Source: Marmoricola sp.
GTDB taxonomy: Bacteria; Actinomycetota; Actinomycetes; Propionibacteriales; Nocardioidaceae
Assembly (NCBI RefSeq): GCF_025965215.1
Contig: NZ_JAOPXI010000041.1
Location: forward strand, 1-62,117
DNA: 62,117 nt
Reading direction: 5' to 3'
Part shown: positions 38,022-56,940 of the stretch, piece by piece
Layout: every line of letters starts with the position of its first letter
Position numbering within the stretch: the stretch's first letter is position 1
Program-made: the position numbers and the translations under genes
The notes under the pieces: model-generated
Databases searched by the model: none
What the model saw: the letters and a program-made list of their open reading frames with translations, nothing else
What the model was told of the DNA's origin: nothing

Positions 38022-38037
38022 TCGAACGCACGTTCGC
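38022..38037 (-). promoter_or_regulatory. LexA-box-like site upstream of the DUF222-HNH gene
   Basis: The plus-strand sequence TCGAACGCACGTTCGC matches the actinobacterial LexA box TCGAAC-N4-GTTCGA at 11 of 12 defined bases (last base C instead of A). It lies 32-47 bases upstream of the ATG of the minus-strand HNH gene, a normal operator position. Mycobacterial 13E12 family genes are reported to carry LexA boxes, which supports the assignment. Confidence 0.65.
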
Positions 38038-53407: not shown

Positions 53408-53463
53408 TTGACGGGCTGTCGGTCCTGCGGTGTACCGTGGAGTTATTCGAACACCTGTTCGAA
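53408..53463 (+). promoter_or_regulatory. SOS promoter with perfect LexA box (53446-53463)
   Basis: TTCGAACACCTGTTCGAA is a perfect palindrome apart from its 4-base centre and matches the mycobacterial LexA consensus TCGAAC-N4-GTTCGA at every defined base. A -35 TTGACG (53408-53413) and a weak -10 TGTACC (53431-53436) with a 17-base spacer sit just upstream, placing the box over the transcription start. It drives the rightward DUF6504-HEPN-methyltransferase-dinB cluster; a 105-base leader follows before the first GTG. Confidence 0.85.
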
Positions 53464-53567
53464 GTCGGCCCCGGTGGAAGGTGACGTCGACCCCCACCTT
53501 CCGCCGGGGCACCGACAAGGGGTCCGTGCCGCGACATCGAGTACGACGAGATCGAGAGGAGCAGACA

Positions 53568-53957
53568 GTGCGACGGTATGACGACCTGGTGGAGGTGCGG
53601 AAAGGTCCGGTTCCCGGCTACGGCGCGGACGGACCGGACAGTTTCGGGGACCTGATGCTGGCGACACGTCCCGACGATCTCCCGGCCAGCGACGCTCCGC
53701 AGCAGTTCCTCTGGCGCGGCCGGCTCTGGCAGGTCCGCTCGATCGTGGCCCACTGGGTCGAGACCGGCGCCTGGTGGTTGCGACGTCCCGAGGAGCGGCC
53801 GGGCGCTTCCGAGCTGATCCGGGAACGCGAGGTCTGGCGGGTGACGGCTGCCCGTGGCCGCGCCGTGGCCACGAACGACGATCCCGGCTTCGGCGTCTTC
53901 GACCTGGCGTTCGACCCGGTCGAGGGCCTCTGGTGCCTCGCCGGTTCGCTGGACTGA
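53568..53957 (+). CDS. DUF6504 family protein
   Basis: The 129-residue protein opens VRRYDDLVEVRKG and has the family core APQQFLWRGRLWQVRSIVAHWVETGAWW and ERPGASELIREREVWRVTAARG. It is a small beta-rich protein of unknown role that, from memory, often sits next to translesion polymerase genes in actinobacteria. GAGGAG 8 bases before the GTG at 53568 is the ribosome binding site. First gene behind a perfect LexA box. Confidence 0.88.
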   Translation: MRRYDDLVEVRKGPVPGYGADGPDSFGDLMLATRPDDLPASDAPQQFLWRGRLWQVRSIVAHWVETGAWWLRRPEERPGASELIREREVWRVTAARGRAVATNDDPGFGVFDLAFDPVEGLWCLAGSLD

Positions 53958-53970
53958 GGGCGAGCGCGTG

Positions 53971-54384
53971 ATGACCCCCAACCTGCAGCTTCCCGCCGCG
54001 ACGCACTCCTACCTCGAACGGTCCGCGGAGTCCTTGCGCGAGGCGATCACCTGCTCCGACGTCCCGCAGCGCTATGCGCTGGCGCACGTCGCGGCACTGC
54101 GTGCCACCGCAGCCCTGCTGGCAGCCCGTGCACAACCGCTCCCGGTGGCCAGGCGACGCCAGAAGAACGCCTGGGTCTTGCTGACCGAGGTCGCGCCCGA
54201 GTTCGCCGAATGGGCGAGGTTCTTCTCCTCCGGCGCCCAGAAGCGGTCGGCGGCCGAGGCCGGGTCCCGGCGTGCCGTGACCGAACGCGAGGCCGACGAC
54301 CTGGTCCGGGATGCCGACCGGTTCCTCGCCCTGGTCGAGACCGCGCTCGGGCTGACCGGACACGCTCCCTTCAGGGTGGCGTGA
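53971..54384 (+). CDS. SAV_6107-family HEPN domain protein
   Basis: The 137-residue all-helical protein matches the SAV_6107 HEPN family. Helix two carries R34-YALA-H39, an Arg-x4-His set that fits the HEPN ribonuclease motif (R-x4-6-H). Later parts are NAWVLLTEVAPEFAEWARFFSSGA and TEREADDLVRDADRFLALVE. The ATG at 53971 (or a GTG three bases earlier) follows the DUF6504 stop by 13 bases, so they are one transcript. HEPN proteins include many toxin RNases; whether this one cuts RNA is unknown. Confidence 0.88.
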   Translation: MTPNLQLPAATHSYLERSAESLREAITCSDVPQRYALAHVAALRATAALLAARAQPLPVARRRQKNAWVLLTEVAPEFAEWARFFSSGAQKRSAAEAGSRRAVTEREADDLVRDADRFLALVETALGLTGHAPFRVA

Positions 54385-54422
54385 CCGGCGGTGCAACCGC
54401 TGCCTGATCTAGGGTTCGGGGC

Positions 54423-55136
54423 ATGGAGCGACCCTTGGAACGCCGTGCGTCGGTCCGTACTGCCGTGGTCTGGGACGCGTGCCGAGCCCACCTCGAGTCC
54501 CGCGCCGGACAGACGGTCGTCGACATCGGGGGCGGTACGGGGGGCCTGGCAGTCCGCGTCGCCGAGCTCGGCCATCAGGTCACCGTCATCGACCCGAGCC
54601 CGGACGCACTGGCGGCCCTGGCCCGACGGGCATCCGAGCACGGCGTCGCCGACCGGATCACCCCTCAGCAGGGCGAGCTCGCCTCGCTGCCAGACCTGGT
54701 CGAGGCCGGGTCGGCGGACCTGGTCCTGTGCCACGAGGTGCTGGGTCTCGTCGACGACCCGGCCGCCGCGTTGGCGACGATCGGCCGGGTGTTGCGACCC
54801 GGGGGAGTCCTCAGCCTGCTGGTCAGCCAGCGGCACGCGGCGGTCCTGGCCAGGGCCATGGCAGGCCACTTCGTCCAGGCGCGCGCGGTCCTCGACGGAG
54901 AGGCCGCCGGTGAGCGGCGGTTCGTCGCCGACGAGCTCGCCGACCTGCTGGCCGCCTCCGGCTTCTCGCTCACGGAGATGCACGCGGTCCGGGTCTTCAC
55001 CGACGTCGTCCCGTCTTCCTTGCTCGACCTCGAGCCGGGAGCGGTCGAGAGCCTGCTCGAGCTCGAACGCGCAGTCGCCCGGCGTCCGGAGTACCGCACG
55101 CTGGGCGCCCAGCTGCACACCCTCGCCACCCGCTGA
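54423..55136 (+). CDS. Class I SAM-dependent methyltransferase in the SOS cluster
   Basis: The 237-residue protein has motif I VVDIGGGTGGLAVRVAELG, the acidic ribose-binding end of strand two (VTVIDPSPDALAAL), and LVLCHEVLGLVDDPAAALATIGRVLRPGGVLSLLV, a UbiE/CmoA-like layout. The substrate is unknown. It lies 38 bases after the HEPN gene and 24 before dinB, all on one strand, so it is probably in the LexA-controlled operon. Confidence 0.88.
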   Translation: MERPLERRASVRTAVVWDACRAHLESRAGQTVVDIGGGTGGLAVRVAELGHQVTVIDPSPDALAALARRASEHGVADRITPQQGELASLPDLVEAGSADLVLCHEVLGLVDDPAAALATIGRVLRPGGVLSLLVSQRHAAVLARAMAGHFVQARAVLDGEAAGERRFVADELADLLAASGFSLTEMHAVRVFTDVVPSSLLDLEPGAVESLLELERAVARRPEYRTLGAQLHTLATR

Positions 55137-55160
55137 GGCAGCGCCGGACCGCGAGGCGCG

Positions 55161-56354
55161 ATGAACGACGGATCGCTGGCATGCCCGTTGCTGCACGTCG
55201 ACATGGACGCGTTCTACGCCTCGGTCGCGTTGCGGGAGCACCCCGAGCTCGTCGATGTGCCCGTCGTCGTCGGCGGTGGCCATCGGGGCGTGGTGCTGTC
55301 GGCGAACTATCCGGCGCGACGACTCGGCATCCGTTCCGGGATGTCGGGGACCGAGGCTGCTCGGCTCTGCCCGCAGGCCGTTCGGCTGGCGCCGGACTTC
55401 GAGGCGTTCGAGTCGGTGTCGCGCTCGGTGATGGAGACCTTCCGGCAGGTCACCCCGCTGGTCGAGGCGTACTCGCTGGACGAGGCGTTCCTCGACGTGT
55501 CCGGATCGAGGCGGGAGCGTGGTACCCCGCTGCAGATCGCCGAGTGGCTGCGAGCCCGGATCCACGACGAGCAGCAGATCACGTGCTCGGTGGGCCTGGC
55601 CGCCAGTGTCTCGGTCGCCAAGCTGGCGAGCAGACGCGCGAAGCCTGACGGCGTCCTGGTGATTCCGCCCGAGCGGGTGATCGAGTACCTGCATCCGCTC
55701 GACGTCGGTGAGCTGTTCGGCGTCGGCGCCAAGACCCGGGCACGCCTGCATCGGCTCGGCCTGGAAACGGTCGGCGACATCGCGAAGATCGGTTTGCCGA
55801 CGTTGCGGCAGATGCTGGGCCAGGCCTCCGGACTGCACCTGCACCAGCTCGCCTGGGGCACCGACCGCAGGACGCTGGTGCCGCGCCGCTCCGACGACGA
55901 CCCGGAACGCAGCATGGGCGCCGAGGAGACGTTCTCGCGCGACACCGCCGATCCGGCTGTGATCCGCCGCGAGCTGCTTCGTCTCGCGACCCGGGTCACC
56001 CGGCGGATGCGGCGAGCCGGGCTGTCGGGTCGGACGGTGGCCATCAGAGTCCGCTACAGCGACTTCACCACCCTGACGCGCTCGCACACGGTGCCCGATC
56101 CGACGGACCTCACCAGCGAGGTCCACGCCGAGGCAGTTCGGCTCTTCGAGGCGCTGCGCACCACGCGCAGGATCCGGCTGGTCGGTGTCCGAGTGGAGGG
56201 TCTCCGTCCCCGGGCCGGGACCCAGCGCCAGCTTGAGCTCGGCGCCCGGGAGCGGGGCTGGGCCGAGGCCGATCGCGCCGTCGATGCGGCGGCGGCCCGT
56301 TTCGGTGGAGGCGCCGTACGTCCGGCCACGCTGTTCGGCGGGAGTCGTCCCTGA
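55161..56354 (+). CDS. dinB: DNA polymerase IV (Y-family translesion polymerase)
   Basis: The 397-residue polymerase has the catalytic residues Asp14 and Asp16 in HVDMDAFYA and Asp107-Glu108 in YSLDEAFLDVSG, NYPARRLGIRSGM in the fingers, and helix-hairpin-helix GVGAKTRARLHRLGLETVGDIA. The position equal to the E. coli steric gate is Tyr19. The C-terminal RPATLFGG is a clamp-binding-like motif lacking the usual Gln. It is the last gene of the LexA-controlled cluster, so SOS induction of lesion bypass is expected. Confidence 0.95.
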   Translation: MNDGSLACPLLHVDMDAFYASVALREHPELVDVPVVVGGGHRGVVLSANYPARRLGIRSGMSGTEAARLCPQAVRLAPDFEAFESVSRSVMETFRQVTPLVEAYSLDEAFLDVSGSRRERGTPLQIAEWLRARIHDEQQITCSVGLAASVSVAKLASRRAKPDGVLVIPPERVIEYLHPLDVGELFGVGAKTRARLHRLGLETVGDIAKIGLPTLRQMLGQASGLHLHQLAWGTDRRTLVPRRSDDDPERSMGAEETFSRDTADPAVIRRELLRLATRVTRRMRRAGLSGRTVAIRVRYSDFTTLTRSHTVPDPTDLTSEVHAEAVRLFEALRTTRRIRLVGVRVEGLRPRAGTQRQLELGARERGWAEADRAVDAAAARFGGGAVRPATLFGGSRP

Positions 56355-56469: not shown

Positions 56470-56940
56470 GTGCCGCTCTCGGAAGAGGAACTGCGCCTGC
56501 TCGAACAGATGGAGCGCGCCCTCGCAGCCGAGGACCCGAAGTTCGTCTCCGCGTTGCAGGGACGGACGCTGCGACGGGTCGCGCGGATGCGGTCAGCGGC
56601 TGCCGGCCTCGTCTTCCTCGGTGGGATCGCGATGCTGATGGGCGGCGCGGTCTCGGAGATGTTGTGGCTCGGCGTCCTGGGCTTCCTGGTGATGCTCTCC
56701 TCCGCGATGATCGGCCTGGCCGCGTGGCGTGGTCACCGCGCGCCGGACGAGCGACCGTCCTCGCCCGACGCACTGTTCGACTTCGACGACCACCCGCACC
56801 GTTTCGAGGTGCTCGACGGCGGCCGGGCCTCGAAGCCGAAGCGCCAGCGTCGTCCCCGTCGTCAGGCGGCGAACAAGAGCGGCACGTTCATGCAGCGCAT
56901 CGAGCAGCGCTGGCAGCACCGTCGGGACCAGGGCTTCTGA
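56470..56940 (+). CDS. DUF3040 membrane protein
   Basis: The 156-residue protein starts MPLSEEELRLLEQMERALAAEDPKFVSAL, the standard DUF3040 opening. Two membrane helices follow (about 45-85; GLVFLGGIAMLMGGAVSEM and LGVLGFLVMLSSAMIGLAAW), then a charged tail with many Arg/Lys. GGAGG lies just before the GTG at 56470. The family is actinobacteria-specific and is commonly found near mraZ. Function unknown. It is convergent with the transglutaminase gene. Confidence 0.92.
   Translation: MPLSEEELRLLEQMERALAAEDPKFVSALQGRTLRRVARMRSAAAGLVFLGGIAMLMGGAVSEMLWLGVLGFLVMLSSAMIGLAAWRGHRAPDERPSSPDALFDFDDHPHRFEVLDGGRASKPKRQRRPRRQAANKSGTFMQRIEQRWQHRRDQGF

Follow-up and report, generated by a model that had tools for sequence, protein, structure and literature searches.

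We analyzed a stretch of 62,117 nucleotides from Marmoricola sp. (Nocardioidaceae, class Actinomycetes; contig NZ_JAOPXI010000041.1, hereafter the window), which harbors a cluster of four genes on the plus strand downstream of a LexA operator (SOS box). The box, the 18-mer TTCGAACACCTGTTCGAA with perfect palindrome arms, occupies positions 53446-53463. It is followed by a gene with a GTG start (53568-53957) for a 129-amino-acid protein of the DUF6504 family (PF20114), a predicted beta protein that reads as a standalone ImuB-C protein, and by a gene (53971-54384) for a 137-amino-acid protein of the HEPN_SAV_6107 family (PF18726), which has the HEPN fold and lacks the canonical RX4-6H motif. The third gene (54423-55136) encodes a CmoM-like class I S-adenosylmethionine (SAM)-dependent methyltransferase of 237 amino acids, and the fourth is dinB (55161-56354), encoding a Y-family DNA polymerase IV of 397 amino acids with conserved active-site residues. 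All four genes lie on the same strand, with intergenic gaps of 13, 38 and 24 bases. A preliminary description of this DNA had given the coordinates, the perfect palindrome, the gene order and the gaps, all of which are exact to the base; its proposal of a single LexA-boxed four-gene operon, a prediction from sequence, is supported by this layout and by the conservation of the box across relatives.

LexA box and promoter

The sole exact match in the window to the 16-mer pattern TCGAACANNNGTTCGA lies inside 53446-53463, and the shorter core CGAACN4GTTCG matches twice in the window against 0.12 expected. In the organism's own genome the core is present at 18 places, compared with none for the reversed control. 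According to neighboring frames and Pfam matches, these places include uvrA, recA, ruvC, an AlkB-like gene, the ImuB-DnaE locus and three DUF222 genes; the remaining half lie inside frames or were left unassigned. The recA and ruvC sites carry the same core as the window box, and the ImuB-DnaE locus has its own LexA palindrome, with an ImuA'-like frame assigned by place.

Conservation was followed in two sets of loci: 80 from Nocardioidaceae, retrieved with the HEPN protein as query, and 66 class-wide loci from 30 families, made up of six earlier HEPN loci and 60 hand-picked among the matches listed. The class-wide set is not random: the 60 loci were picked to cover many families, and family f3, with its large, Streptomyces-like genomes, is under-represented (2 of the 66 loci). 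Loci that share a family do not count as independent observations. Except in the phylum-sample and genome-level DUF6504 searches, loci were chosen by their HEPN gene; its constancy is thus given by construction, and that of the LexA box is not. In 77 of the 80 Nocardioidaceae loci, the 1 kb ahead of the HEPN gene contains a perfect palindrome; the exceptions are L090, where the site has one mismatch, and L109 and L128, both close to a contig end. Where Nocardioidaceae loci lack DUF6504, the box sits 49-205 bases before the HEPN gene. Class-wide, 59/66 loci carry a perfect palindrome within 1.3 kb upstream of the HEPN gene, and of the seven misses, five (L162, L163, L164, L167 and L206) have a one-mismatch site and two (L171 and L207) have none. 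Elsewhere in the class-wide loci, 765,135 bases contain 5 palindromes, a background of 0.0085 per 1.3 kb; measured against this expectation per locus, the counts in both sets indicate that the box is not a chance match. The operon is therefore a predicted member of the LexA (SOS) regulon, and in the cell LexA would be expected to control it.

Two side observations concern the box. Palindromes of the form CGAACN4GTTCG lie at or near the 5' ends of three DUF222 genes (window positions 38023-38036, and loci L004 and L017); SOS control of DUF222 genes is known from mycobacteria. In family f3, an imperfect site, CGAACN4GATCG, occurs about 270-290 bases before the HEPN match in five of seven loci (L020 and L022-L025).

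A predicted promoter on the plus strand, TTGACG (53408-53413) and TACCGT (53433-53438) separated by 19 nucleotides, directly precedes the box. The preliminary description had judged a promoter plausible here, and this gains support from conservation: of 78 Nocardioidaceae sequences (the window and 77 others), 70 have a TTGAC element (at most one mismatch), followed after 16 to 19 nucleotides by TAnnnT, immediately ahead of the box, compared with 2% of shuffles. Overlapping this promoter on the same strand is a second candidate element, CTGTCGGTC-N8-TACCGT (53416-53438), which differs at two positions from tTGTCRgtg-8 nt-TAnnnT, the RecA-independent damage promoter of mycobacteria (RecA-NDp) that has been tied to PafBC (PMC5656591). 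With at most two mismatches to this mycobacterial consensus, the motif was present in 57/78 Nocardioidaceae sequences, compared with 0.3% of shuffles and 0/400 random 76-mers of the same loci, and the best match started 31-32 bases before the box in 67/78. In the window alone, two-mismatch matches number 8 against 1.15 expected, and the element is not unique; the weight that we give it rests on its fixed place before the box.

The organism's own genome carries a tandem pair of WYL genes (PafB/PafC-like) on contig C19, where they follow the end of a Pup ligase gene, and we take this pair to be PafBC because it is placed where PafBC should lie. Genes with both LexA and PafBC elements are known in mycobacteria (PMC8223512), and in Streptomyces venezuelae an initial search suggested that the mycobacterial PafBC motif is not conserved (PMC9380542). 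Because a PafBC-type motif overlaps the promoter, dual control of the operon by LexA and PafBC is predicted. In the same genome, the uvrA locus (L001) has a LexA palindrome and a one-mismatch RecA-NDp match starting 55 bases before it, and is possibly a second such dual promoter.

The encoded proteins

The window's DUF6504 protein scores above the cut-off of its Pfam model. The same model matches residues 428-479 of an ImuB encoded on an Asticcacaulis plasmid (E 1.2e-5, above the cut-off), in a locus with the order damage-inducible protein (at the ImuA position), Y-family protein, error-prone polymerase; a Rhizobium ImuB reaches 1e-4, just below the cut-off. The match in an alphaproteobacterial ImuB decided the identity, and judged by sequence DUF6504 is the ImuB-C domain as a standalone protein. 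A fold search with the DUF6504 model gave no convincing match in the PDB; this was to be expected, since ImuB-C is described as lacking close relatives there (PMC12926913). Of 29 DUF6504 loci in a phylum sample, 22 have an adjoining DnaE match and 27 have a LexA palindrome; with 1.5-kb flanks, HEPN was found in three of these loci only, all from the window's class. DUF6504 was not found by name in the main text of the open-licence literature, supplements being outside the scope of that search. The preliminary description had credited dinB alone with a known SOS role; this is not supported, because DUF6504 is the ImuB-C domain, which is published as a mutasome module.

An alignment of 47 DinB sequences shows the catalytic residues intact in 46, the window included; the remaining one has a D-to-E change. 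The protein ends in a conserved tail, W.EADRAVD.A..RFG..AV, which resembles the RecA-NT motif by eye.

The closest solved relative of the methyltransferase is CmoM, over residues 9-235 of 237 (E 1e-22). In all 68 sequences compared, the SAM-site residues R26, GGG and D73 are kept, as is R209, which contacts the base in CmoM. Four other CmoM residues, W124, Y247, R246 and K218, are replaced in 68/68, and the tRNA-backbone residues K176-R178 are not conserved; W124 and Y247 of CmoM, a tRNA cmo5U34 methyltransferase, contact the carboxymethoxy group (PMC10516636). The protein scores 98 bits against a cut-off of 366 for the NCBIfam CmoM equivalog, and CmoB was found above its cut-off in none of 98 genomes of the class and in 1 of 14 control genomes, with E. 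coli heading the list. CmoM identity was rejected on the equivalog score, the replaced W124 and Y247 and the lack of CmoB above its cut-off in the class genomes. The enzyme is likely to act on another substrate, which, given R209, may perhaps still be a pyrimidine. Modification of RNA, an activity that the preliminary description had raised as well, is a possible function of the enzyme.

The HEPN protein matches HEPN_SAV_6107 with 116.9 bits against a curated cut-off of 27.2 (E 6e-34). Its predicted model (mean predicted local distance difference test score, pLDDT, 87.7) finds HEPN proteins as the best PDB folds, with a template-modeling (TM) score of 0.67 to the query for 2hsb and a Foldseek E of just 0.03. 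The alignments reveal conserved stretches, RYxxAHxAALR, W-x-LL..APE..EWA..F and R.ADDL, and no canonical RX4-6H motif of HEPN ribonucleases (RNases) in the window protein. An R-x4-H string, R34-H39, is present in helix 2, at a position that we take to be atypical for the HEPN catalytic motif, and two of nine diverse sequences have Y or Q instead of its histidine. In line with these alignments, the SAV_6107 family is described in print as devoid of the catalytic motif, and its table row names no gene association (PMC3710099). RNA cleavage, which the preliminary description had raised as a possibility, is unlikely for a HEPN protein without the RNase motif, and the candidate role as an RNase or toxin was rejected; the protein most likely binds rather than cuts. 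The family is present in 197 of 296 genomes of the class.

Gene content across relatives and known mutasomes

Many relatives encode a DnaE polymerase in the same operon. Of the 80 Nocardioidaceae loci, 46 carry a DnaE of the kind found in L085, a protein of 1248 residues. Its gene sits between those for HEPN and the methyltransferase in 40 loci, follows HEPN with no methyltransferase in the stretch in four, and is divergent in two (L096 and L102). In the latter two loci the operon is split into divergent halves, DUF6504-HEPN versus DnaE-methyltransferase-DinB, with two perfect LexA palindromes upstream of DUF6504-HEPN. The absence of DnaE carries little weight in 9 of the 34 loci without a match, because their contig stretch ends within 2.5 kb of HEPN. 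The L085 protein scores above the NCBIfam cut-off for the DNA polymerase III alpha superfamily and below those for the equivalog and the error-prone polymerase; we assign the operon DnaE to the DnaE2B type, a name given from its context and a published scheme rather than from a tree. In the window's own close group (eight loci, L074-L080 and L083), which includes the culturable Nocardioides marmorisolisilvae KIS18-7 (L076), the four genes are linked without DnaE. The preliminary description had named unlinked genes in close relatives as a result that would speak against one operon: the linkage holds in these eight loci, and elsewhere members are gained and lost around HEPN.

The own genome (94.8% complete) has no DnaE in the operon, and its matches elsewhere are 31-37% identical; it encodes ImuB outside the operon, in a separate imuB-dnaE locus. 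Across 49 genomes of the 80 loci, 17 have the operon DnaE only, 24 ImuB only, 7 both and 1 neither (Fisher p 8e-7), so that operon DnaE and ImuB are for the most part mutually exclusive; all seven genomes searched from the window group have ImuB. From this pattern, the state of the window can be described as ImuB-C, HEPN, methyltransferase and DinB without DnaE2B, with ImuB-DnaE elsewhere. Genomes with DnaE2B are stated to lack ImuA and ImuB (PMC12926913). The own genome, with no DnaE in its operon, does have ImuB. Exceptions to the published exclusion are 7 of the 24 genomes with an operon DnaE: at L088, L092, L093, L097, L112, L124 and L127, a DnaE2B-like gene in the operon is accompanied by an ImuB match in another part of the genome, with an identity of 62% or more across most of the query.

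For the class-wide loci, each frame was assigned to its best family. DUF6504, HEPN, a DnaE2B-like gene and DinB occur together in 31/66, 16 of them with the methyltransferase, and 34 of the 36 loci with a DnaE2B-like gene carry DUF6504. In 7/66 the HEPN gene lies beside ImuB and DnaE, none of the seven with DUF6504; it is thus linked to both types of mutasome. The others comprise HEPN-methyltransferase-DinB (6), HEPN-methyltransferase (2), other partial sets (7) and 13 loci in which DUF6504, DnaE, ImuB, the methyltransferase and DinB were all absent above the score limits. Twelve of these 13 have a perfect box. The sequence past HEPN extends for just 1 kb in L218 and 6 kb in L189, and a weaker DinB match is found in L199 and L219, on the other strand and at a distance of 9-10 kb. 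Similarly, eight Nocardioidaceae loci without dinB (L104, L105, L107, L117, L131, L136, L144 and L146) keep the perfect box and have DUF3040 after the methyltransferase. At the genome level, 76 genomes have both HEPN and DUF6504; the positions of both were listed for 63 of them, and in 53 of those 63 no more than 1 kb separates the two.

The resemblance to actinobacterial mutasome loci that had been proposed at the outset is supported. The operon shares a standalone ImuB-C and an active Y-family polymerase with the predicted DnaE2-[ImuB-C]-PolY-RecA mutasome of Actinobacteria (for example in Tessaracoccus lapidicaptus; PMC12926913), of which DnaE2B is a part. The window operon lacks DnaE, whereas many Nocardioidaceae relatives have it, and it carries HEPN and methyltransferase genes, neither word of which was found by a search of the main text of that paper. 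With the mycobacterial ImuA'-ImuB-DnaE2 mutasome (PMC6511836) it has in common an SOS-controlled error-prone module with an ImuB-C domain; there, an inactive Y-family protein is fused to ImuB-C, whereas in the window ImuB-C is separate and the polymerase keeps its active-site residues. SOS operons with standalone ImuB-C and DinB have also been described (Aravind et al. 2013, PMC3765255), in a text in which a word search found neither HEPN nor methyltransferase; the window operon has both. The family HEPN_SAV_6107 (HEPN-M) is listed with no association (PMC3710099), whereas in the loci studied here it has a LexA box and is found in linkage with genes of mutasomes. The preliminary description had not recognized HEPN plus methyltransferase upstream of dinB as a known system, and this combination was likewise not found among the papers listed by searches of the open-licence literature, supplementary tables (such as those of an S. 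venezuelae LexA study) being outside its scope. Nor did we find in print the HEPN gene beside both mutasome types, or the perfect box in the 12 of 13 loci where such partners were not found.

Around the operon, DUF3040 of the SCO2097 family (56470-56940) starts 115 bases past dinB, and a gene with an aminoacyl-tRNA editing (YbaK-like) domain lies upstream on the opposite strand. The closest named relative, a Marmoricola metagenome genome (L074), shares 98% identity in HEPN. In some Nocardioides, a gene of the Endonuclease I family (Pfam) lies between HEPN and the methyltransferase at L108 (6483-7343) and L131 (6260-7675); at L150 (6613-7887), a frame judged similar by appearance occupies the same slot.

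Candidate roles of the operon

Since DUF6504 is identified as ImuB-C and the relatives' loci hold DnaE, the operon, as predicted from its gene content, is a reduced form of the published DnaE2-[ImuB-C]-PolY-RecA mutasome. We consider it fairly probable that a single LexA-repressed and probably PafBC-activated operon yields a reduced translesion mutasome, with HEPN as a non-catalytic accessory and the methyltransferase modifying a substrate. In the proposed mechanism, LexA would repress the four-gene operon until DNA damage switches it on, PafBC would probably act as an additional activator, and DinB would serve as the polymerase of the complex. DUF6504 would be its beta-structured ImuB-C subunit, which in models of related systems connects DnaE2 and ImuA with the Y-family protein. 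Many relatives would supply a DnaE2B-type DnaE from the same operon, while the window group would work without it and have its separate imuB-dnaE locus. The HEPN protein would most likely bind nucleic acid or polymerase subunits at stalled forks, where it may load, stabilize or restrain the error-prone enzymes, and the methyltransferase would modify some substrate.

Several results weigh against this reading. The identity of DUF6504 met with discordant comparisons: its model has no match in the own ImuB or in a Burkholderia ImuB, a profile comparison with actinobacterial ImuB-C was weak (16.5, against 16.1 for the best of five column shuffles), and hhalign gave E 0.016 with a probability of 2.9. 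In an ungapped profile test of the DinB tail against the own RecA, 389 of 2000 shuffles reached the score, which is not significant. As regards the promoter, a generic sigma-70 scan, limited to spacings of 16-18 nucleotides where the spacing here is 19, found nothing, and class-wide only 22 of 59 loci have RecA-NDp with at most two mismatches, the other 37 matching poorly. A perfect box is present in 0/8 genomes of the Streptomyces-like family f3, 0/2 of f4 and 0/2 of f7, though most of these genomes do have a one-mismatch site, and f3 keeps HEPN-methyltransferase without a perfect box. The presence of HEPN and of DUF6504 is not associated across 296 genomes of the class (76 both, 121 HEPN only, 45 DUF6504 only, 54 neither; p 0.26). 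Finally, the box in 12/13 partner-less HEPN loci is equally compatible with a mutasome role and with a wider role in the SOS response.

Such a wider role is the subject of one alternative, in which HEPN_SAV_6107 would be a general SOS checkpoint or damage-tolerance protein, acting for example in replication or division, that merely shares a LexA promoter with mutasome genes. The boxes retained in partner-less loci and in the eight loci where methyltransferase and DUF3040 alone follow HEPN, the lack of association with DUF6504 across genomes and the SCO2097 morphological-protein family of the next downstream gene would all suit it; the close spacing of HEPN and DUF6504 in most genomes with both, together with the seven loci in which HEPN adjoins ImuB and DnaE, amounts to a strong mutasome linkage that argues the other way, and we hold this alternative to be unlikely. 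More improbable is that HEPN and the methyltransferase are housekeeping genes of the region, brought under LexA merely through insertion of a polymerase operon. As this would predict, two f3 loci (L164 and L207) with the order HEPN-methyltransferase-DUF3040 have neither a polymerase match nor a perfect box, but perfect boxes are kept in other loci where no polymerase was found, and the box stays close to HEPN in Nocardioidaceae loci lacking DUF6504.

We give the least credence, and very little, to the view that DNA damage induces HEPN as an RNase or toxin and that the methyltransferase acts as an antidote to it or as a partner that modifies RNA. The methyltransferase does resemble a tRNA methyltransferase, but the histidine of R34-H39 is not invariant, and no methyltransferase was found in 36 of the 66 class-wide HEPN loci (some of them cut by contig ends), unlike what would be expected of an antidote. 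The HEPN superfamily includes many RNases, but SAV_6107 is listed there without a conserved motif (PMC3710099).

Beyond the reduced mutasome itself, we tentatively propose that HEPN_SAV_6107 belongs to the SOS core of the class Actinomycetes and would be the first HEPN protein to act as a non-catalytic subunit in error-prone DNA synthesis. It may serve both DnaE2B/ImuB-C/PolY and ImuA'/ImuB/DnaE2A under joint LexA/PafBC control, with an optional CmoM-derived methyltransferase acting on damage-related nucleic acid, nucleotide or protein.

SOS mutagenesis by DnaE2 and its partners drives actinobacterial adaptation. Collectively, our findings offer a candidate addition to the subunit list of these mutagenesis machines, a widespread HEPN family that in the loci studied is mostly LexA-boxed and that is tied to both mutasome types. 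DUF6504 would thereby gain an identity, and the promoters described here are predicted to join the LexA and PafBC damage responses of actinobacteria.

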